From contig JAKATL010000002.1 in assembly GCA_021827985.1 (NCBI GenBank), forward strand, positions 1 to 64,000: a DNA stretch of 64,000 bases, in the 5' to 3' direction. This DNA is from a bacterium (lineage in GTDB: Bacteria > Chloroflexota > Dormibacteria > Aeolococcales > Bog-877). The position numbers and the translations under genes are program-made. This document shows positions 33,552 through 44,680 of the stretch, one piece after another; within the stretch, counting starts at the first letter, position 1, and each line of letters starts with the position of its first letter. The notes under the pieces were generated by a model. It saw only the letters and a list, made by a program, of their open reading frames with translations. It was not told the DNA's origin and did no database searches.

Positions 33552-33809
33552 ATGATGGCTATCGAGCAGTTGACGGCCCTGGAGGCCCAGAAGACGGTCG
33601 ATGCGCGGGGAACCTCCTGCCCCGGTCCCATCCTGGCGGCCAAGAAGGGGATCGTCGAGGTCAAGGTCGGCGAGGTGATGGCGGTGCTCTCCACCGACTC
33701 CGGAACCAAGAAGGACCTTCCGGCCTGGGCGGCCAAGATGGGACACGAGTTCCTTGGGGTAGTGGACGAGCAGGGCTACTTCAAGTGCTTCGTGAGGAGG
33801 ATGAAGTAA
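33552..33809 (+). CDS. tusA: TusA/SirA-family sulfurtransferase
   Basis: 85 residues with a strong AGGAGGTGACC site. The family signature is VDARGTSCPGPILAAKK with the persulfide-carrying C23 in CPGP. TusA proteins accept sulfane sulfur from cysteine desulfurases or rhodaneses and pass it to DsrE/TusE-type partners; in dsr or shdr loci they feed sulfur oxidation. It is the first gene of the hdr-like operon, which favours the dissimilatory role. Confidence 0.9.
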   Translation: MMAIEQLTALEAQKTVDARGTSCPGPILAAKKGIVEVKVGEVMAVLSTDSGTKKDLPAWAAKMGHEFLGVVDEQGYFKCFVRRMK

Positions 33810-33815
33810 CCGGCC

Positions 33816-34259
33816 ATGGCAACCACCATGGCGCCGCCGGCCCCCACGGCGGGAACCACCTTCGGCCCCAAGATCCTGGTGTTCTCCACCAATAACATCT
33901 CGGATCCGGGGATCGACCTGGCGGGCAGCTCGCATCTGCACTACTCCCCCCGGGCGATGACGATCGCGGTTCCCTGCAGCAGCGGGATCGCCCCGGAGTG
34001 GATCGCCTACGCCTTCGACCAGGGGTTTGATGGGGTCTTCATCGCCTCCGACGGCGAGGAGTGCAGCTACCTCACCGACTGCTCGGAGCGGTCGGCCAAG
34101 TTGTTCGAGAGAGCGCAGGCGATGATGGCGGAGAAGGGGTACGCCCCGGAGCGCCTCAAGATGGCGGCCATCTGCTCGGTCTGCGCCGAGCCCTTCGTGA
34201 AGTACATGCACGAGTTCGAAGCCCAGCTGCGGGAGCTGGGCCCGGTCGGGGTGGCATAG
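33816..34259 (+). CDS. MvhD/FlpD-like hydrogenase iron-sulfur subunit homologue
   Basis: 147 residues. The fold-defining pattern of MvhD is visible: KILVFSTNN, DLAGSSHLHYSP, PCSSGIAPEWIAYAFDQGFDGVFIA and ECSYLTDC. Methanogen MvhD uses several cysteines to bind [2Fe-2S] and relays electrons to HdrA. Here the usual N-terminal CNWC is STNNIS, leaving C54, C83, C89, C120 and C123. The gene ends two bases before hdrA, so it likely docks on HdrA. No hydrogenase MvhAG genes are present. Confidence 0.75.
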   Translation: MATTMAPPAPTAGTTFGPKILVFSTNNISDPGIDLAGSSHLHYSPRAMTIAVPCSSGIAPEWIAYAFDQGFDGVFIASDGEECSYLTDCSERSAKLFERAQAMMAEKGYAPERLKMAAICSVCAEPFVKYMHEFEAQLRELGPVGVA

Positions 34260-34261
34260 CC

Positions 34262-36961
34262 ATGGACTACGACGTCCTGGTGATTGGAAGCGGCATCGGG
34301 GGGATGGAGTCCGCCCTCAAGCTCGGGGACATGGGCTATCGGGTCCTGGTGGTCGAGAAGGAGGCCTCGGTGGGGGGGAAGATGATCCTCCTCAGCAAGG
34401 TGTTCCCCACCCTGGACTGCGCCAGCTGCATCTCCACGCCCAAGATGGCGGCGACCATCCACCACCCCAACATCACCGTCCGCACCTATGCGGAGGTGGA
34501 GAGGATCCAGCGCCACCCGGATGGCACCTTCTCGGTGTCGATCCGCCAGAACCCACGCTTTGTCGATGAGGCCGCCTGCACCGGCTGCCAGCTCTGTGAG
34601 CAGGCCTGCACGGTGGCCGTCCCCGACCAGTTCAATGCCGACCTGGTGTCCAGGCGGGCCGCGTACATCCCCTTCCCTCAGGCCGTGCCCAAGAAGGCGG
34701 TGGTCGAAAGGCCGGGTACGTCGCCCTGCACCTTCGATTGCCCGGCCGGCATCAAGGCGCATGGGTACGTTTCCCTGGCGCGGAGTGGCGAATACGAGAA
34801 GGCCTTCAACCTGGTCCTGGAGAGCACTCCCCTGGTGGGTAGCCTTGGGCGGGCCTGCTTCGCACCCTGTGAGGATGGCTGCTCGCGCGGATCGCTCGAG
34901 GGCCCCGTGCCGATCCGCCGGATCAAGCGTTTCGTTGCCGACGCCCACTACCAGTCCGAGTTCCCGTTGGGAGTCGAGGCCGGCTCGACCACCGGGAAGC
35001 GGGTGGCGATAGTGGGCTCCGGACCGGCCGGCCTCACCGCGGCCTGGCAGCTGCGCCTGCTGGGACACGAGGTGAAGATCTACGAGGCGGGGCCGGTGGC
35101 GGGAGGAGCCCTCGGCCTCACCATCCCGAACTACCGGCTCCCGAGCGAGGTGGTGGCGGACGACGTGGGCAACGTCACCGCGATCGGAGTTGAGATCGAG
35201 CTCAATCACCGGGTGACCGATCTGGGTGAGCTCACGGACCAGGGCTTTGACGCCGTCCTCGTGGCGACCGGAACGCCGCGCTCGGGACGACTCGGAGTGG
35301 ACGGGGAGGCCCTGCCCCAGGTGGTTCCGTCCCTGGACTTCCTTGAGGCCAGCAAGCTGTGTCGGGGGATGGAGGTCCGGGGGCAGCGGGTGGTGGTCGT
35401 GGGTGGTGGCAACGTCGCCATCGACGCGGCCCGCTCGGCTCGTCGACTGGGGGCCCTGGCCGTGACCGAGGTGTGCCTAGAGACCCGCGCGGAGATGCCG
35501 GCCTTCGACTGGGAGGTCGATGAGGCTCTGGCCGAGGGGGTGCATCTGGAGGACGGCTGGGGAATCGCCAGGGTCCTAGGCCACGACCGGGTGGAGGGGA
35601 TCGAGCTCAAACGCTGCACCGCGGTATTCGACGCCCAGGGCCGCTTCCACCCCGCCTATGACGAGGGCGAGCGCCAGAGCATCGCCTGCGACCTGGTGGT
35701 GGTGGCGATCGGGATGGGGCCGGACACCGAATCCTTCGCCCCCCTGCTCGACCGCCGGGGAAACGGGACTCTGGCAGTTGATCCGGGCACCCTGCAGTCT
35801 CGGGTCCCCAAGATCTTCGCCTGCGGGGACGTGGTTGACGGCGCCACCATGATCACGACCGCGGTTGGCCAGGGACGCCGCGCCGCCCACATGATCGACC
35901 GCTTCCTCAACTCCCAGGAGTTTGACCCGGAGGAGTTCAATCTGCTCCTGCCCCGGGTCGAGGCCCAGGATGTGCTGCGGCGGCAGAAGACGCACAGCCG
36001 GAAGGATGCCCTGGGGTCGGGCAAGGAGCTGGTCCTGGATCCCCGCGACTTCCACGAGATCGAGGCTCCCCTGAGTGAGGCCGAGGTGCACTACAGCGCC
36101 GGTCGCTGCCTGGACTGTGGGGTGTGCTCCGAGTGCCACGAGTGCGTGAACGTCTGCCCGGCCGATGCCATCCATCTGGACATGCGACCGGAGAAGGTGG
36201 AGACGGAAGTGGCGGCGGTGGTGGTCTCCACCGGCTTCAAGCTGTTCCCGGCGGACCTCAAGCCCCAGTACGGGTTCGGTCGCTTCAAGAATGTCATCAC
36301 CGGGATGCAGATGGACCGGCTGCTGGCTCCGACCCGGCCCTTCAACACCGTGCTCAGGCCCGGTGATGGAAAGGTCCCGGAGCGGATCGCCTACGTGATG
36401 TGCACCGGCTCGCGGGACCAGACAGTGGGCAACCCACTCTGCTCCCGGATCTGCTGCATGTATTCCATCAAGCAGAACCAGCTCATCATGGGAGCCCTTC
36501 CCCTGGCTGACGTCACCGTGTTCACCATTGACGTGCGCACCGCCGGCAAGGGATATGACGAGTTCTACGTCCAGGCCGAGGCGATGGGAACCACCTTCAT
36601 CAAGGGCCGGATCGCCGAGATCCGGGAGCTGGACAACGGCGACCTGGTCCTCCGCTACGAGGACATCGAGCACGGTGGCGAGATCCGGGAGGCCGAGTTC
36701 GACCTGGTGGTCCTGGCGGTGGGCGTGCAGCCCAACCTGGACACCCGCCAGCTGTTCGGCGAGGGCGAGCTCCAGCACGACCCCTACTACTACGTGGAGG
36801 AGGTGGACGAGGACCTCAACCCCGGGCAGACCAGCATCGAGGGGGTGTTCGTCGCCGGCGCGGCGTCCGGGGCCAAGGACATACCCGAGTCGATCCTCCA
36901 CGCCGGGGCGGCCGTGGCCCAGGCCGCGGCCCACGTCGAGGCCCTGAGGGTGAGGTCATGA
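34262..36961 (+). CDS. hdrA: HdrA with an inserted GltD-type NAD(P)H module
   Basis: 899 residues from the ATG at 34262. HdrA N-half: FAD-binding VLVIGSGIGGMESALKLGDMG (about 5-25), CASC (53-56) and CTGCQLCEQAC (107-116). Then a GltD-like module: cysteine domain (156-207), FAD GxGxxG (250-256) and NAD(P)H GGGNVAIDAARSARRL (381-396), ending near 550. HdrA resumes with a [4Fe-4S] region (CLDCGVCSECHECVNVCP, 616-632) and the second half of its FAD domain (CTGSRD, LCSRICC). Ordinary HdrA of heterodisulfide reductase has no such insert. The fusion would let the Hdr complex exchange electrons directly with NAD(P)H. Overlaps the next gene by ATGA. Confidence 0.88.
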   Translation: MDYDVLVIGSGIGGMESALKLGDMGYRVLVVEKEASVGGKMILLSKVFPTLDCASCISTPKMAATIHHPNITVRTYAEVERIQRHPDGTFSVSIRQNPRFVDEAACTGCQLCEQACTVAVPDQFNADLVSRRAAYIPFPQAVPKKAVVERPGTSPCTFDCPAGIKAHGYVSLARSGEYEKAFNLVLESTPLVGSLGRACFAPCEDGCSRGSLEGPVPIRRIKRFVADAHYQSEFPLGVEAGSTTGKRVAIVGSGPAGLTAAWQLRLLGHEVKIYEAGPVAGGALGLTIPNYRLPSEVVADDVGNVTAIGVEIELNHRVTDLGELTDQGFDAVLVATGTPRSGRLGVDGEALPQVVPSLDFLEASKLCRGMEVRGQRVVVVGGGNVAIDAARSARRLGALAVTEVCLETRAEMPAFDWEVDEALAEGVHLEDGWGIARVLGHDRVEGIELKRCTAVFDAQGRFHPAYDEGERQSIACDLVVVAIGMGPDTESFAPLLDRRGNGTLAVDPGTLQSRVPKIFACGDVVDGATMITTAVGQGRRAAHMIDRFLNSQEFDPEEFNLLLPRVEAQDVLRRQKTHSRKDALGSGKELVLDPRDFHEIEAPLSEAEVHYSAGRCLDCGVCSECHECVNVCPADAIHLDMRPEKVETEVAAVVVSTGFKLFPADLKPQYGFGRFKNVITGMQMDRLLAPTRPFNTVLRPGDGKVPERIAYVMCTGSRDQTVGNPLCSRICCMYSIKQNQLIMGALPLADVTVFTIDVRTAGKGYDEFYVQAEAMGTTFIKGRIAEIRELDNGDLVLRYEDIEHGGEIREAEFDLVVLAVGVQPNLDTRQLFGEGELQHDPYYYVEEVDEDLNPGQTSIEGVFVAGAASGAKDIPESILHAGAAVAQAAAHVEALRVRS

Positions 36962-38688
36962 GCGAGCGCAAGATCGGCGTCTACGTCTGCCAGTGCGGCG
37001 GCAACATCTCCGACTACGTGGACGTGGAGCGGGTCCGCCAGGCCGTGGCCGAAGACCCCGACGTGGTGGTGGCCCGAACCGCGATGTTCACCTGCTCAGA
37101 CGCCACCCAGGACGAGATCGCCGACGACATCAAGCTCGATGACCTGGACGGACTGGTGGTCGCCTCCTGCTCCCCCAAGCTCCACACCTTCACCTTCCGC
37201 GGAGTGGCCCGCCGCGCCGGCCTCAACCCCTACCGCTACACGCAGGTGAACCTGCGCGAGCAGGACTCCTGGGCCCACACCGACGATCGCCTAGGCGCGA
37301 CCGAGAAGGCGATTCGCCTGGTGCGAGCCGGGATCGCCCGCACCCGTCTGCTCGAGCCGCTCGACCCGACCGTGGTGGAGACCGTTCCCCGGGCGCTGGT
37401 CATCGGTGCCGGGATCGCGGGGCTGCGAGCCGCGATCGGGCTGGCGGACATAGGCCTTGGGGTGGTCCTCATCGAGCGCGAGGCGGAGGTGGGGGGGCAT
37501 GTGCGGGAGCTGGGGACCATGTATCCGCACGACCGCCAGGGGCAGGAGTTGATCTCGGAGCTCCTGGGTGAGGTCCGGCGCCGGGAGGGCATCGCGCTCT
37601 TCACCAACGCCGAACTGGTGCGCAAGGGCGGCACCTTCGGGAATTACGAGGTGGACATCCGGACCCGCGGCGACTCCAACATGACCCGCCGCTTCGAGGT
37701 GGGCTCGATCATCGTCGCCACGGGATTCGACAGCTATCTCCCGGAAGAGGGGGAGTACGGCTACGGCATCCCCGGTGTCCTGACCCTCCCGGAGTTCAAG
37801 AAGCTGGTGGATGCCAGCGAAGGCCCGCTGGTCTACGGGGACCGTCCGGTCCGCTCGGTCGCCTACATCTACTGCGTCGGGAGCCGCCAGGGCGAGAGCG
37901 GACCGCACCAGTACTGCTCGCGCTTCTGCTGCACCTCGGCGGTGCACACCGACCTGGAGCTCCGGGCCAAGGCCCCCAAGGTCCACCAGTACCACCTCTA
38001 CCGGGACATGCGCACCTATGGACGCTACGAGCTCCTCTACAACGATTCCCGGGAGAAGGGCTCCGCCTACCTTAAGTTCGCACCCGACACCCCTCCTGAG
38101 GTTCAGCGCCGTGGGGACGGCCAGCTGGAGGTAAGGGTCCATGACCAGCTCGCCAGCCAGGAGGAGGTCAACCTGGACGTGGACCTGGTGGTCCTGGTGA
38201 CCGGGATGGTGCCCCGCTCGAACCAGGAGCTGATCCAAAGGCTCAAGCTGCCCGTGGGCCGAGACGGTTTCTTCAACGAGATCCACCCCAAGCTCCGACC
38301 GGTGGAGACAGTGGTGGACGGGGTGGCCATCTGCGGCGCGTGCCAGTTCCCCAAGACGGCGGGGGAGAGCGTGGCCTCCGGGCTGGCGGCGGTCTCCTGG
38401 AGCGCCGCCATGCTCAAGCAGGGGAGGGCCGAGCTGGATCCCCAGGTGGCGACCGTGGATCCGGACCTCTGCACCTTCTGCGGGGTCTGCATGGAGGCCT
38501 GCCCGTACGGCGCCATCGGGCAGCAGGAGCTGGGCGGGAGCCGCCAGGTGGCGGTCATCGACCCGGCCACCTGCAAGGGCTGCGGCGGCTGCGCCCCGCT
38601 CTGTCCGGAGCACGCCATCAACGTACTCGGATACACCGGTAGGGAGGTGGAGGCGATGATCGAGAGCCTGGCCGCGGGGGTCGCCTGA
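36958..38688 (+). CDS. Second HdrA-like flavoprotein
   Basis: 576 residues. N-terminal HdrA domain with the CQCGGNISDYVD motif and CSPKLH (about 1-135), FAD-binding RALVIGAGIAGLRAAIGL (about 142-160) with GGHVRELGTMYPH, CVGSRQGE and the paired-cysteine YCSRFCC, and two C-terminal [4Fe-4S] motifs (CTFCGVCMEACP, CKGCGGCAPLCP). This is canonical HdrA architecture. Two adjacent HdrA subunits suggest a heteromeric core in which this one faces HdrC/HdrB and the GltD-fused one faces NAD(P)H. Confidence 0.88.
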   Translation: MSERKIGVYVCQCGGNISDYVDVERVRQAVAEDPDVVVARTAMFTCSDATQDEIADDIKLDDLDGLVVASCSPKLHTFTFRGVARRAGLNPYRYTQVNLREQDSWAHTDDRLGATEKAIRLVRAGIARTRLLEPLDPTVVETVPRALVIGAGIAGLRAAIGLADIGLGVVLIEREAEVGGHVRELGTMYPHDRQGQELISELLGEVRRREGIALFTNAELVRKGGTFGNYEVDIRTRGDSNMTRRFEVGSIIVATGFDSYLPEEGEYGYGIPGVLTLPEFKKLVDASEGPLVYGDRPVRSVAYIYCVGSRQGESGPHQYCSRFCCTSAVHTDLELRAKAPKVHQYHLYRDMRTYGRYELLYNDSREKGSAYLKFAPDTPPEVQRRGDGQLEVRVHDQLASQEEVNLDVDLVVLVTGMVPRSNQELIQRLKLPVGRDGFFNEIHPKLRPVETVVDGVAICGACQFPKTAGESVASGLAAVSWSAAMLKQGRAELDPQVATVDPDLCTFCGVCMEACPYGAIGQQELGGSRQVAVIDPATCKGCGGCAPLCPEHAINVLGYTGREVEAMIESLAAGVA

Positions 38689-38689
38689 G

Positions 38690-38938
38690 ATGGTCGTTGA
38701 GAGCCGCGACCTGCGCGAGGTGATCCGAGAGGAGCCGCTTCGGCGCCGCGAGATCCTGAGGGCGGTGGCCGACGGTCCACGCACCGTGCCGGAGATCGCC
38801 GGAATGATCGGCTGCCCCACCCACGAGGTCATGTACTGGGTGATGGGGATGCGCAAGTACGGGTACCTCGCCGAGAGCTCCGAGGCCGATGATGATGGGC
38901 TCTTCCACTACCGGGCGCTGGAGCGGCTTGCGCCATGA
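38690..38938 (+). CDS. Small winged-helix protein within the hdr operon
   Basis: 82 residues. Helix-turn-helix pattern EEPLRRREILRAVADGPRTVPEIAGMIGCPTHEVMYWVMGMRKYG fits a winged-helix (MarR/ArsR-like) domain and little else. The ATG starts one base after the hdrA stop and its end overlaps hdrC by four bases, so it is made in step with the enzyme. It may be a local regulator or a DNA-binding fold reused as an assembly factor. Confidence 0.7.
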   Translation: MVVESRDLREVIREEPLRRREILRAVADGPRTVPEIAGMIGCPTHEVMYWVMGMRKYGYLAESSEADDDGLFHYRALERLAP

Positions 38939-39249
38939 CCGCCACGCTCCAGCCCGACCTGGCGGAGAGGGTGGGGATGGACCCCGCCTTCAATCCCTCG
39001 GCCTGCATGAACTGCGGCATCTGCACCGCCATCTGCCCCCTTGGGCTGCGCCATCTTCCCCGCGAGGTGTTCGCCTACGTGGTCCTGGGGATGGAGGAGG
39101 AGGTGCTCCAGCATCAGGAGGAGGTGTTCTCCTGCCTGCTCTGCAAGCTCTGTGAGGTGAGCTGCCCGGCGGGCGTGCACATCACCGAGAACGTGCGGGC
39201 GCTCCGGCACTACTTCGACCGCAACGTTTTCCGCCTACAGGGGAGGTGA
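38935..39249 (+). CDS. hdrC: HdrC-like ferredoxin subunit
   Basis: 104 residues with two CxxCxxCxxxCP motifs (CMNCGICTAICP and CLLCKLCEVSCP), the hallmark of HdrC. It wires electrons between HdrA and HdrB. Length is shorter than methanogen HdrC, as in sulfur-oxidiser Hdr-like subunits. Overlaps the winged-helix gene by four bases and precedes hdrB by three. Confidence 0.88.
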   Translation: MTATLQPDLAERVGMDPAFNPSACMNCGICTAICPLGLRHLPREVFAYVVLGMEEEVLQHQEEVFSCLLCKLCEVSCPAGVHITENVRALRHYFDRNVFRLQGR

Positions 39250-39252
39250 GGG

Positions 39253-40239
39253 ATGCCCCTGGCCACCTCCGACACCATCGCGATCCTGGCCGACAACCTG
39301 CGGCTGCGCAAGTCGGTGCTTCCCATCCCCGCCGCCAATGCCATCCGCTGGACGGAGGGGCTGCACCTGCGTCGGGGCGGGGACACCGTCCTCTACACCG
39401 GGCAGATGTACCAGCTGATCCCCTACATCGAGCAGCTGGTGGCCGCGGAGGAGCGGCTGGGGGACTCCTTCCTGGCCGGCTTCACCGGATTTGGTCGCCA
39501 GGTGAACCGGGTCCTGAACCTCGCCGGGTTCATGGCCCACCCCAGCTCTGCGGAGCGGTCGGTGTACGACCGGATCCCCCACAACGTGGCCCTGCTCTTG
39601 CGTCGAGCCGGGGTCGACTTCGGGTCCCTGTTCGAGGATGACCTCTACTCGGGGGCGCTCATCTACGACCTCGGGGTGGACGAGGTCCTGGCCGCCCACG
39701 CCCGCACCGTGTACGAGGTCTTCCAGAAGTACGAGGTGAAGGAGGTCATCACCATCGACCCCCACACCACCAACATGCTGCGCTCGGTCTACCCCACGTT
39801 CATTCCCGGTTATGAGCTCAAGGTGCGCAGCTACCTGGAGGTGCTGGCGGAGCGCGGCTTCGGACCCACGCGCAGGCTGGCCGGAGAGGTGGCCATCCAC
39901 GACTCGTGCGTCTTCGCCCGCTACGAGGGGGTGGTGGACGCCCCCCGCCAGCTCCTGGACCAAGCCGGGCTCACGGTGCGCGAGCCGGCCCACAGCGGCA
40001 TCATGACCTGGTGCTGCGGCGGACCGGCCGAGTCCCTCTTCCCCAGGCGGGCGGCTGAGCAGGCGGCCCGGCGGGTCGGCGAGCTGCGGGCGGTGGCGGG
40101 CCGGGCGGTCACCATGTGCCCGCTTTGCTTCGTCAATCTGGAGAAGGCAGCCGAAGACGTGATCGCCATCGAGGACATCTCCGACTACCTGTTGCGGGCC
40201 TGCGAGGGCCCGGAAGGAGAGTCAGATGGACAGCTCTAA
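39253..40239 (+). CDS. hdrB: HdrB-like CCG-domain subunit with a degenerate first motif
   Basis: 328 residues. The C-terminal cysteine-rich CCG module is intact: IHDSCVFARYEG, then WCCGGPAESLFP, then CPLC, ligands for the non-cubane cluster that does disulfide chemistry in HdrB. The N-terminal module has lost its cysteines: YTGQMYQLIPY stands where a YxGC motif is expected and TGFGRQ where a CCG is expected. One non-cubane cluster site is therefore predicted, not two. It overlaps the dsrE gene by 14 bases. Confidence 0.85.
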   Translation: MPLATSDTIAILADNLRLRKSVLPIPAANAIRWTEGLHLRRGGDTVLYTGQMYQLIPYIEQLVAAEERLGDSFLAGFTGFGRQVNRVLNLAGFMAHPSSAERSVYDRIPHNVALLLRRAGVDFGSLFEDDLYSGALIYDLGVDEVLAAHARTVYEVFQKYEVKEVITIDPHTTNMLRSVYPTFIPGYELKVRSYLEVLAERGFGPTRRLAGEVAIHDSCVFARYEGVVDAPRQLLDQAGLTVREPAHSGIMTWCCGGPAESLFPRRAAEQAARRVGELRAVAGRAVTMCPLCFVNLEKAAEDVIAIEDISDYLLRACEGPEGESDGQL

Positions 40240-40702
40240 GAAGACCCTCATCGTGTTCAGCGGAGATCTGGACCGGGCCATCGCCGCCTTCATCATCGCC
40301 ACCGGAGCCGCTGCCATGGGCGATGAGGTGACCATGTTCTTCACCTTCTGGGGGCTCAACATTCTGCGCAAGAGCTCGGCACCGCACCACCACAAGGCCC
40401 TGCTCCAGGCGATGTTCGGGGCCATGATGCCCCGGGGCACCGCCCGGCTCCGGCTCTCGCAGATGAACTTCCTGGGTCTGGGTCCGCGCCTGATGCGCCG
40501 GGTGATGCGCCAGCAGAACGTCATGTCCCTGGAGGAGCTGATGGCCAGCGCGCGCGAGCAGGGCGTGAAGATGATCGCCTGCAAGATGTCCATGGACGTG
40601 CTCGGCCTGTCCGAGGATGAGCTCGTCGACGGTCTGGACTACGTCGGGGTGGCCAGCTACCTGGCCGAGGCTGACCAAGCCTCGGTGAACCTTTTCGTCT
40701 GA
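40226..40702 (+). CDS. DsrE-family sulfurtransferase
   Basis: 158 residues, GGAAGGAGAG ribosome site. DsrE fold: KTLIVFSGDLDRAIAAFIIATGAAAMGDEVTMFFTFWGL, and one conserved Cys (C119 in MIACKMSMDVLG). The HHH stretch and long central insert are typical of DsrE2/DsrE3-type peripheral proteins. Such proteins pass persulfide sulfur with TusA in Hdr-like sulfur oxidation. Related to the protein at 45726-46235. Confidence 0.85.
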   Translation: MDSSKKTLIVFSGDLDRAIAAFIIATGAAAMGDEVTMFFTFWGLNILRKSSAPHHHKALLQAMFGAMMPRGTARLRLSQMNFLGLGPRLMRRVMRQQNVMSLEELMASAREQGVKMIACKMSMDVLGLSEDELVDGLDYVGVASYLAEADQASVNLFV

Positions 40703-40715
40703 TGGAGTTGGGGGG

Positions 40716-41135
40716 ATGAAGATGGCCAAGATGGTTGTCGGGCTGGCGAGCGGCAGCGAGGAGACGCTGCTGGTGGCCTCCACCGTGATCGGAGGAGCGG
40801 TGGCTCTGGACCAGCGGGTTGACCTGTACCTTCTCCTGGGCGGGGCCCGAGCCTTCCGCCGGGACGTGGCCACTAGTGAAAGCCCCACCTACGACCACCC
40901 GGAACTCCGGGCCGAGATGGAAGCGGGGATTGCCAAGCACAAGATCCCGCTCCCCATGGCTCAGCTGCGCAACCTGAAGGCGCAGGGCGACCTGCACATC
41001 CACGCCTGCGCCACCGCCGGCAAGATCTGGGGCGCGGAGCAGCTCTCCGACTTCAGCGACCTCGTTGACGACATCGTGGGCGTCGGCGAGTACGTGATCG
41101 CCTGCGCGGAAGCCGACGCGGTCCAGACGCTCTGA
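40716..41135 (+). CDS. DsrE/F-like sulfur-relay protein
   Basis: 139 residues. VVGLASGSEETLLVASTVIGGAVALDQRVDLYLLLGG fits the first half of the DsrE/F fold; candidate sulfur-carrying cysteines are C98 (HIHACATAGKIWG) and C130 (YVIACAEAD). A second ATG two codons in is possible. Fourteen bases after the preceding dsrE-like gene, it closes the first half of the island. Confidence 0.72.
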   Translation: MKMAKMVVGLASGSEETLLVASTVIGGAVALDQRVDLYLLLGGARAFRRDVATSESPTYDHPELRAEMEAGIAKHKIPLPMAQLRNLKAQGDLHIHACATAGKIWGAEQLSDFSDLVDDIVGVGEYVIACAEADAVQTL

Positions 41136-42731: not shown

Positions 42732-43442
42732 ATGCAAGACATGCAGATGCAAGCCTTGCCGATGCATGGTAGGCACGACGGCGGGGAGATGCTGCGGGCG
42801 GCGCAGGTTGGGCAGCTGCTCTCCATCGACCGCTCGACGGTCTATCGGATGGCGGAGCGCGGGGGCTTGCCGGCGCTCAAGATCGGCCGCCAGTGGAGGT
42901 TCCCCTCTCGCGAAATCGGCCTCCTGCTGAGCGCCCGCACCGGGCGCGGTTCCGAGGTGGTTGCCTCGGGGCGAGCGGCTATGACCGCGGCCACCCGGGC
43001 GGCGCTGCCGATGATCGAGCTGGCCGCGCAGCTGCTGGGCGTCATGGTCGTTGCCACGGACATGGACGGCGAGCCGGTAGCAGAGGTCCTCAACCCCTGC
43101 CCCTGGTTCAGCGAGCATTCTGATGACCCCGAGCTGCTGGACAGCTGCCTCGCCGACTGGAAGCAGCTGGCCGACGACCCCTGCCTCGACGTCAGCTTCC
43201 GCACCGGGCCGCTGGGGCTGGACTGCGCCAGGTCGTTCGTCCGCCAGGGCAGCCTCCTGGTGGGCATGCTGCTGGCGGGCGGCGTCGCCGCCGCGGAAAC
43301 CGAGGACCGTGCCGTCTACCGGCTCACGTCGGAGGGCCGGGGACGGGTGCTCACCTCTCTTCCACTCATCGCGGGCAGGGTGTCCAGCCTGGTGGCGCCA
43401 GCACCCGCAGCGGATTCCAACACGAGGTATATGACCAAATGA
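42732..43442 (+). CDS. HTH + PocR-domain regulator
   Basis: 236 residues from the ATG at 42732; in-frame ATGs at 42741, 42762 and 42789 are alternatives. An excisionase/MerR-type helix-turn-helix ([38 protein letters not shown]) precedes a PocR-type sensory domain ([27 protein letters not shown]... [22 protein letters not shown]). Cysteines in PCPWF, SCLADW, PCLDVSF and LDCARSF could bind a cluster or sense persulfide. Its stop overlaps the SQR start (ATGA), so it probably controls the sulfur genes. Confidence 0.8.
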
Positions 43443-44680
43443 AGCGACTTGTGATCCTCGGCGGTGGCACCGCCGGGACCATGGCGGCCAACCGCCTGCG
43501 GCGGCGCCTGGACCCGGGCGACTGGAAGATCAGCGTGGTGGATAAGAGCGAGATCCACTACTACCAGCCCGGGCACCTGTTCGTTCCTTTCGGCATCTAC
43601 CGGCCCCAGGACGTGGTCAAGCCGCGCCGGCGCTTCATCCCTGACGGCGTCGACCTGATCTTCGGGGAGATCGCCCAGGTGGTCCCCGCGGAGAATCGCG
43701 TCCTACTCACGGACGGCCAGGAGCTGCCCTACGACTACCTGATCATCGCCACCGGCACCTCCCCGCGCCCGGACCAGACTCCCGGGATGGCGGAGACCGA
43801 GTGGCGCAAGAGCGTGCACGAGTTCTACACCCTGGAGGGTGCCACGGCGCTGGGGGAGCGGCTGGCGGACTGGGACGGCGGCCGCATGCTGGTGCAGATC
43901 GTCGACATGCCTATCAAGTGCCCCGTGGCTCCCCTGGAATTCACCTTCCTCGCCGACGCCTTCTTCGCGGAGCGGGGTATCCGCGACCGGGTGGACCTGA
44001 CCCTGGTGACGCCGCTGGAGGGAGCCTTCACCAAGCCCATCGCCTCCAAGCATCTCGGGTCCATCCTCGGCGAACGTGGGGTCAGGATCGAGGGGGACTT
44101 TGTGGTCGAGCGCATCGACCCGGACCGCAAGACGGTGGTCTCCTACGACGGGCGAGAGATCCCCTTCGACCTGCTGGTGACGGTACCCCTCCACATGGGT
44201 GCCGACTACCTGGCGGCGTCTGGCCTGGGCGACGAACTCAACTACGTCCCGGTGGACAAGTGCACCCTGCTGTCCAAGGCCTATGCCAACATCTTCGCCA
44301 TCGGCGACGCTTCGGACATCCCGACCTCCAAGGCTGGGTCTGTGGCCCACTTCTCCCTGGAGCTGTTCGAGGACAACTTCGTGAGCCATGTGCGCGGCCG
44401 GGCCATGACCCGCCCCTTCGACGGGCACGCCAACTGCTTCATCGAGTCCGGGCACGGCAAGGGGCTGTTGATCGATTTCAACTACGACACAGAGCCGCTG
44501 CCCGGAAAGTACCCCCTGCCCGGCATTGGCCCCTTCTCCCTGCTTCGGGAGACCGAAGCCAACCACTGGGGAAAGATGATGTTTCGCTGGGTCTACTGGA
44601 ACCTCCTGCTACCCGGCAAGCCGATGCCCCTCGAGCCGCTGATGTCGATGGCCGGAAAAGAGGTCGAGGTGCTGCCGTGA
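43439..44680 (+). CDS. Sulfide:quinone oxidoreductase-like flavoprotein
   Basis: 413 residues. FAD-binding LVILGGGTAGTMAANRLRRRL, YYQPGHLFVPFGIY and YDYLIIATGTSPRPDQTPG are typical of SQR. C161 (IKCPVAPLEF) and C333 (ANCFIESGHGKG) are the likely redox pair; C275 is a third. A C-terminal hydrophobic/aromatic segment (MFRWVYWNLLLPGKPMP) suits monotopic membrane attachment. It would oxidise sulfide to persulfide or polysulfide and reduce quinone. The following DUF1641 gene is a known companion of such enzymes. Confidence 0.85.
   Translation: MKRLVILGGGTAGTMAANRLRRRLDPGDWKISVVDKSEIHYYQPGHLFVPFGIYRPQDVVKPRRRFIPDGVDLIFGEIAQVVPAENRVLLTDGQELPYDYLIIATGTSPRPDQTPGMAETEWRKSVHEFYTLEGATALGERLADWDGGRMLVQIVDMPIKCPVAPLEFTFLADAFFAERGIRDRVDLTLVTPLEGAFTKPIASKHLGSILGERGVRIEGDFVVERIDPDRKTVVSYDGREIPFDLLVTVPLHMGADYLAASGLGDELNYVPVDKCTLLSKAYANIFAIGDASDIPTSKAGSVAHFSLELFEDNFVSHVRGRAMTRPFDGHANCFIESGHGKGLLIDFNYDTEPLPGKYPLPGIGPFSLLRETEANHWGKMMFRWVYWNLLLPGKPMPLEPLMSMAGKEVEVLP

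Follow-up and report, generated by a model that had tools for sequence, protein, structure and literature searches.

An HdrA polypeptide interrupted by a complete GltD module is encoded in the window (the whole stretch of 64,000 nucleotides analyzed here), within a tight operon in the order TusA, MvhD, HdrA-GltD, HdrA2, wHTH-like, HdrC, HdrB, DsrE2, and DsrE-like. The cassette TusA-MvhD-HdrA(GltD)-HdrA2-wHTH-HdrC-HdrB, usually with DsrE2, is conserved in every testable locus of the 80 compared. Judging from sequence features, we lean slightly towards the view that HdrA-GltD serves a soluble Hdr complex for protein-bound sulfur as its bifurcation-type flavin subunit, at which NAD(H) docks. The features concerned are as follows.

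33552..33809, + strand: TusA sulfur-carrier protein, 85 aa, with a CPGP motif (Pfam TusA, 78.9 bits)
33816..34259, + strand: MvhD/FlpD [2Fe-2S] electron-transfer subunit, 147 aa (Pfam FlpD, 101.6 bits)
34262..36961, + strand: HdrA with inserted GltD, 899 aa (ORF, Pfam/NCBIfam, 5ODC alignment, 78-protein alignment, AlphaFold2/Foldseek)
34262..34705, + strand: HdrA part 1, with the FAD Rossmann half, C53/C56, and inserted-Fd cluster 1, C106-C116 (5ODC alignment; Cys in 78/78)
34709..36112, + strand: inserted GltD/NfnB-type module, with Fe-S Cys 156, 160, 199, 203, and 207, FAD motif 252-257, and NAD(P) motif 381-386 (profile matches, structure alignments)
35474..35482, + strand: coenzyme loop C405-L406-E407, putatively of NADH type (aligned with YRR of NfnB/StnABC/NfnABC)
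36107..36157, + strand: six-Cys stretch C616/619/622/625/628/632 (profiles, 5ODC alignment, 78-protein alignment)
36113..36958, + strand: HdrA part 2, with the second flavin-domain half, Cys 714/727/731/732, and D685 + K737, and no C-terminal Fd (5ODC alignment; 78/78)
36958..38688, + strand: HdrA2, 576 aa, with an N-terminal Fe-S domain, FAD domain, and C-terminal 2x[4Fe-4S] (alignments)
38690..38938, + strand: small winged-helix/HTH-like protein, 82 aa (weak HTH_5 match)
38935..39249, + strand: HdrC-like protein with two [4Fe-4S] motifs, 104 aa (profile matches)
39253..40239, + strand: HdrB-like protein with a single C-terminal CCG domain (Pfam CCG)
40226..40702, + strand: DsrE2 sulfur-carrier family protein (Pfam DrsE_2, 206 bits)
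40716..41135, + strand: DsrE-like-sized protein (96%, 74%, and similar in the near relatives G004/G001)
43439..44680, + strand: type III sulfide:quinone oxidoreductase, SQR (NCBIfam NF049943, 624.8 bits against a cut-off of 525; PDB SQR, 2e-43)

The HdrA-GltD gene starts with ATG and runs without interruption through 899 codons to a stop. The first-pass annotation had described it as one unbroken 899-residue frame with HdrA sequence at both ends, which is borne out by profiles and by alignment with Methanothermococcus HdrA (5ODC). According to Pfam and NCBIfam, the domain order is HdrA, GltD (Fer4_20, Pyr_redox_2, PRK12771), and HdrA again. Residues 2-150 and 617-890 are homologous to HdrA and residues ~150-550 to GltD, the GltD match extending to ~637-650 in PRK12771-type models; the motif positions given by the annotation stand, but the end of the insert, placed by it at about 550, has to be moved to ~617. 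In the 5ODC alignment, residues 5-150 of the query correspond to HdrA 146-290 and residues 618-890 to HdrA 289-563. The GltD module, about 467 residues long, appears to have been inserted without visible loss of HdrA sequence, because the junction residues 150 and 618 pair with 5ODC residues 290 and 289, respectively. The insertion point separates the two [4Fe-4S] motifs of the so-called inserted ferredoxin domain, the ferredoxin dock of ordinary HdrA, and the six-Cys stretch 616-632 belongs both to the Fe-S region that closes the GltD module at its C terminus and to cluster 2 of that domain.

The insert aligns over its full length with the structures of NfnB and StnABC/NfnABC (PDB 4ylf, 5jca, 8oh5, and 9n5u) and of GltD. 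An AlphaFold2 model of HdrA-GltD, built from a 54-sequence alignment, reached a pLDDT of 85.3 and a pTM of 0.79, with low-confidence stretches at residues 37-56, 121-145, 690-694, and 760-762. Foldseek searches with this model retrieved NfnABC/Stn/NfnB (4ylf, TMt 0.80) and GltD as well as an HdrA match spanning the insert (8rvu_a, TMt 0.82). The annotation had named a middle segment lacking the FAD or NAD(P) pocket as the outcome that would speak against it; this outcome was not obtained, as the folds found there are those of NfnB/GltD, and FAD and NAD(P) pockets are predicted in the module from fold and motif.

Homologues sharing this domain order, for which the annotation had proposed a search, were found as the same continuous frame in independent contigs of many species. 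The uninterrupted order is kept at 63-97% identity within the same genus, family, and order, and at 54-97% identity across the 80 loci from GTDB genomes; these are the best-scoring relatives and, therefore, describe conservation among near kin in this clade, not every GltD-bearing HdrA. Residue counts refer to 78 aligned HdrA-GltD proteins. All 21 tested Fe-S-type cysteines (53, 56, 106, 109, 112, 116, 156, 160, 199, 203, 207, 616, 619, 622, 625, 628, 632, 714, 727, 731, and 732) are invariant in 78/78, and so is every glycine tested in the two FAD motifs. Within the NAD(P) motif, no variation was seen at G381 and A386, and 75 proteins have G383. A chance ORF or a chimeric contig is ruled out by the occurrence of the same fused frame in dozens of independent contigs. 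Long opposite-strand ORFs over HdrA-GltD were rejected as a side effect of high GC content, and the recurrent opposite-strand neighbor families in the relatives' loci as high-GC antisense artefacts.

According to record titles, which may be imprecise for MAGs, the 80 loci come from Actinomycetota, Bacillota (Desulfofundulus, Desulfotruncus, and Desulfallas), Chloroflexota, Acidobacteriota, Armatimonadota, Myxococcota-labelled bins, Dormiibacterota, LCP-89, Aminicenantes, and Thermoplasmatota. Nine or more phyla are thereby represented among the carriers of the cassette, with Thermoplasmata archaea among them.

The two HdrA proteins of the cassette are complementary. Compared with 5ODC, HdrA-GltD lacks the N-terminal Fe-S domain and the C-terminal ferredoxin, both of which are present in HdrA2, and so does not have the layout of methanogenic HdrABC, in which both occur in one chain. 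HdrA2, in turn, lacks the inserted ferredoxin, a Cys197 equivalent, and the Glu/Lys pair; any cysteine within its residues 151-230 was seen in only 2 of 75 proteins, and the positions of the pair are mostly occupied by Lys281/His330. In HdrA-GltD, C56 aligns with Cys197 of 5ODC, and D685/K737 align with E356/K409, the bifurcation pair. Lys737 is present in 78/78, and position 685 is Asp in 69 and Glu in nine; the Asp of the window is a conservative, not identical, counterpart of the Glu in characterized bifurcating HdrA. In methanogen HdrA, Cys197 of one chain completes the N-terminal cluster of the other chain, and complementary loss has been read as a sign of a heterodimer (PMC9012536). HdrA-GltD and HdrA2 probably form an asymmetric dimer, because the N-terminal domain is found in one HdrA and the Cys197 equivalent in the other. 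With the pair kept in HdrA-GltD and replaced in HdrA2, each dimer would seem by sequence to have a single flavin capable of bifurcation. Bifurcation by HdrA-GltD is thus permitted by its residues, and the earlier suggestion that it might bifurcate electrons or couple directly to NAD(P) is supported, as candidate status, by the folds, the conserved dinucleotide-binding motifs, and the acid 685/Lys 737 pair in 78/78.

TusA was found directly upstream in 77/77 testable relatives, with CPGP in 77/77, and MvhD lies upstream of HdrA-GltD in 77/77. HdrA2 was scored in 71/77 by script, and the six apparently missing cases are merged frames. The wHTH-like protein, present in 75/75 testable cassettes, is a candidate regulator or structural subunit. 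HdrC was found in 73/73 testable loci, and HdrB or a fused HdrCB in 60/60, the fusion being seen in roughly half of the relatives. The C-terminal CCG cysteines are the only CCG cysteines conserved in HdrB (35/35 separate HdrB proteins), so that the two-CCG HdrB of methanogenic HdrABC is not matched. A single CCG site is as in DsrK-like enzymes, and CoM-S-S-CoB reductases use two. DsrE2 is located within 8 kb in 40/47 testable loci, and the DsrE-like-sized protein at 40716..41135, which keeps its place beside DsrE2 in near relatives, had no Pfam match.

The type III SQR gene, 2.3 kb downstream and outside the conserved cassette, is a possible feeder for it. The NCBIfam model that it matches above cut-off is a "selenoprotein subtype", and its frame as read here contains no in-frame TGA. 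A CsoR/CstR-type (Trns_repr_metal) repressor gene recurs by the cassette among loci L056, L064, L066, L068, and L079, and TauE, OsmC, and SQR-like genes recur near it in other loci; such neighbors are in keeping with persulfide handling. Two further loci from the same taxonomic order (L025, 10110-13445, - strand; L026, 8720-12058, + strand) encode a 1112-aa HdrA with both the N-terminal domain and the GltD insert, adjoining a Vhu-type [NiFe] hydrogenase and a hydrogenase protease, and the GltD module therefore seems to be reused with different partners. Elsewhere in the genome of the window, locus L016 (G000:C47:162000-180000) carries sat, aprA, QmoA-like and QmoB-like HdrAs, an HdrCB-like gene, a second HdrA-like gene (367 aa), and EtfBA.

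In the proposed mechanism, HdrA-GltD and HdrA2 would form the asymmetric HdrA dimer, with Cys56 of HdrA-GltD completing the N-terminal cluster of HdrA2. As the GltD module sits at the ferredoxin dock of ordinary HdrA, NAD(P)H would replace ferredoxin at that port, and electrons may pass from NAD(P)H through the FAD and Fe-S clusters of GltD to the HdrA flavin. Moorella HdrA, which also carries the GltD module, has NADH:benzyl viologen activity (PMC9430772), in agreement with such a port. A second port would be HdrC-HdrB, whose one non-cubane CCG site may act on a persulfide or disulfide of TusA/DsrE2; the gene neighborhood suggests these carriers as substrates. MvhD and the C-terminal clusters of HdrA2 could provide a third port for a further putative partner. 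The likelier direction here, given the NADH-type loop and the nearby type III SQR, would be sulfane sulfur oxidation with NAD+ as acceptor, while the reverse direction is plausible in YRR-type sulfate reducers. On the best reading, the complex would be an analogue of DsrL without DsrAB, acting on TusA/DsrE2-carried sulfur.

The choice of coenzyme bears on this direction. Residues 405-407 align with the YRR of NADPH-using relatives, which is found in all five aligned NfnB/StnABC/NfnABC-type subunits. Among the 78 proteins, the loop is YRR in 51, CLE/SLE in 25 (the window included), and neither in two; the latter, AEA/AAA in L086 and L096 (Propionibacteriales), are possible intermediates or cases of altered specificity. 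At least four YRR/LE changes are needed on a tree built without the coenzyme-loop columns. YRR occurs in every Desulfo-type sulfate reducer sampled, and LE in the lineage of the window and in Thermoplasmata. For DsrL, a sulfur enzyme resembling GltD, experiments linked YRR to the use of NADP(H) and the lack of YRR to that of NAD(H) (PMC7596348). By analogy, the distribution hints at reductive use in the YRR sulfate reducers and oxidative use in the LE lineages, and the position of the type III SQR would accord with oxidation. A GXGXXG at the GltD NAD site of nine archaeal type III HdrA sequences was taken as NAD-type (PMC12054007). The site here is GGGNVA (GxGxxA), with Ala386 in 78/78, and that rule would point opposite to the NADH assignment from the LE loop; GXGXXG is an attribute of the nine archaeal sequences, not a definition of the type. 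GltD as the small subunit of glutamate synthase does not fit the window, which has CLE, not YRR, and no GltB gene in the operon.

Insertion of GltD into HdrA is already published, as HdrA9-11 (PMC9012536), type III HdrA (PMC12054007), and Moorella HdrA (PMC9430772). This published architecture, the second complementary HdrA downstream, and the TusA/DsrE sulfur carriers in the operon were missed by the first-pass annotation. Type III HdrA, or HdrA9-11 (HdrA-NfnB), of ANME-1 and Bathyarchaeota likewise has GltD/NfnB in the inserted Fd domain of HdrA, and an NAD(P)H port was proposed for it (PMC12054007; PMC9012536). By sequence, HdrA-GltD belongs to this type, as its insert lies within the inserted-Fd domain and the tested FAD-domain residues and Fe-S cysteines are kept in 78/78. 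The nine type III sequences come from archaea that metabolize methane or alkanes, and their genes lie close to mvhADG or to another hdrA. In the present cassette, by contrast, TusA, DsrE2, and a single-CCG HdrB are encoded along with a complementary HdrA2 as a chain of its own, and the cassette is found in Thermoplasmata and numerous bacterial phyla. The insert shares fold and cofactor motifs with NfnB, StnABC, and NfnABC, which are stand-alone proteins or other fusions. DsrL likewise connects sulfur chemistry in the cytoplasm with NAD(P) through a GltD-like module and shows the split into YRR and non-YRR forms (PMC7596348), but its partner is DsrAB/DsrC, whereas the partners here are Hdr-type. 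The sulfur-oxidizing sHdr system also has Hdr subunits encoded with TusA/DsrE carriers (PMC6067878), but it needs lipoate-binding proteins and hdrC1B1AhypC2B2, a gene set not seen in the cassette. By gene order, hdrC1B1A-hyp-C2B2 was absent at the loci compared, and a crude lipoyl-motif search for linked LbpA among the ORFs of the 80 loci gave one unlikely candidate. The sHdr system is not known to carry a GltD insert. No description of the TusA-MvhD-HdrA(GltD)-HdrA2-wHTH-HdrCB cassette was found in the open-access literature, within which it is apparently undescribed.

Three other explanations were weighed. The complex could simply be an NAD(P)H:persulfide/disulfide oxidoreductase that does not bifurcate, in which the HdrA flavins only relay electrons between GltD and HdrB, as a soluble thioredoxin-reductase-like detoxifier or a sulfur reductase. 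The loss of the bifurcation pair from HdrA2, a conserved cassette without any ferredoxin-linked enzyme, and the presence of the cassette in Actinomycetota (Cellulomonas/Actinotalea) besides sulfate reducers agree with this; no low-potential acceptor for bifurcation is evident, and electrons may instead take a simple two-electron NADH:disulfide route. However, D/E685-K737 is kept in 78/78 across phyla, and the cassette retains MvhD and, in HdrA2, the C-terminal Fd, which a two-port enzyme could do without, so we regard this explanation as rather unlikely.

Much less can be said for a Moorella-type methylene-THF reductase (MetVF-HdrABC-MvhD) with HdrA-GltD as the NADH-oxidizing subunit, which we consider highly improbable. 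The HdrA of Moorella thermoacetica does have the same GltD-interrupted N-terminal half and an HdrA2-like half without inserted Fd, together with MvhD, and it oxidizes NADH (PMC9430772). It differs in being a fused 163-kDa chain with metVF as partner and without TusA/DsrE2, and it has the bifurcation pair in both halves, whereas only one HdrA has it here. No metVF was found near the cassette, and this assignment was disfavored; in the window, as in its two closest relatives, the flanking genes encode PPDK, an ABC transporter, and an aldehyde dehydrogenase, and the recurrent neighbors elsewhere are of TusA/DsrE2/SQR/CsoR type. A role in dissimilatory sulfate/sulfite metabolism, as electron donor to DsrC/DsrAB or AprBA, would suit the occurrence in Desulfofundulus, Desulfotruncus, and Desulfallas and the sat-aprA-qmo-like genes, aprA included, of this genome. 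As for INDEPENDENCE from known sulfur systems, however, dsrA exceeded the curated cut-off in 0/51 lineage genomes, this genome (93% complete) included, and aprA was not found in six other cassette carriers (G001, G003, G004, G014, G030, and G046; drafts, 75-90% complete), which makes such a role improbable.

Beyond the NAD(H)-docking Hdr complex, which is the preferred reading, we put forward, as less likely than not, a widespread and so far undescribed pathway independent of DsrAB and lipoate. In it, an asymmetric, bifurcating Hdr complex with an NAD(P) dock would oxidize or reduce the sulfane sulfur on TusA/DsrE2, its choice of NADH or NADPH having switched repeatedly with metabolic direction. 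If true, one operon would connect protein persulfides straight to the NAD(P) pool in sulfate-reducing Bacillota, actinobacteria, Chloroflexota, and acid-mine Thermoplasmata, and would account for sulfane sulfur handling in organisms without Dsr or lipoate-dependent sHdr. The short signatures YRR and LE would then give testable predictions of the direction of metabolism, for which DsrL is a precedent.
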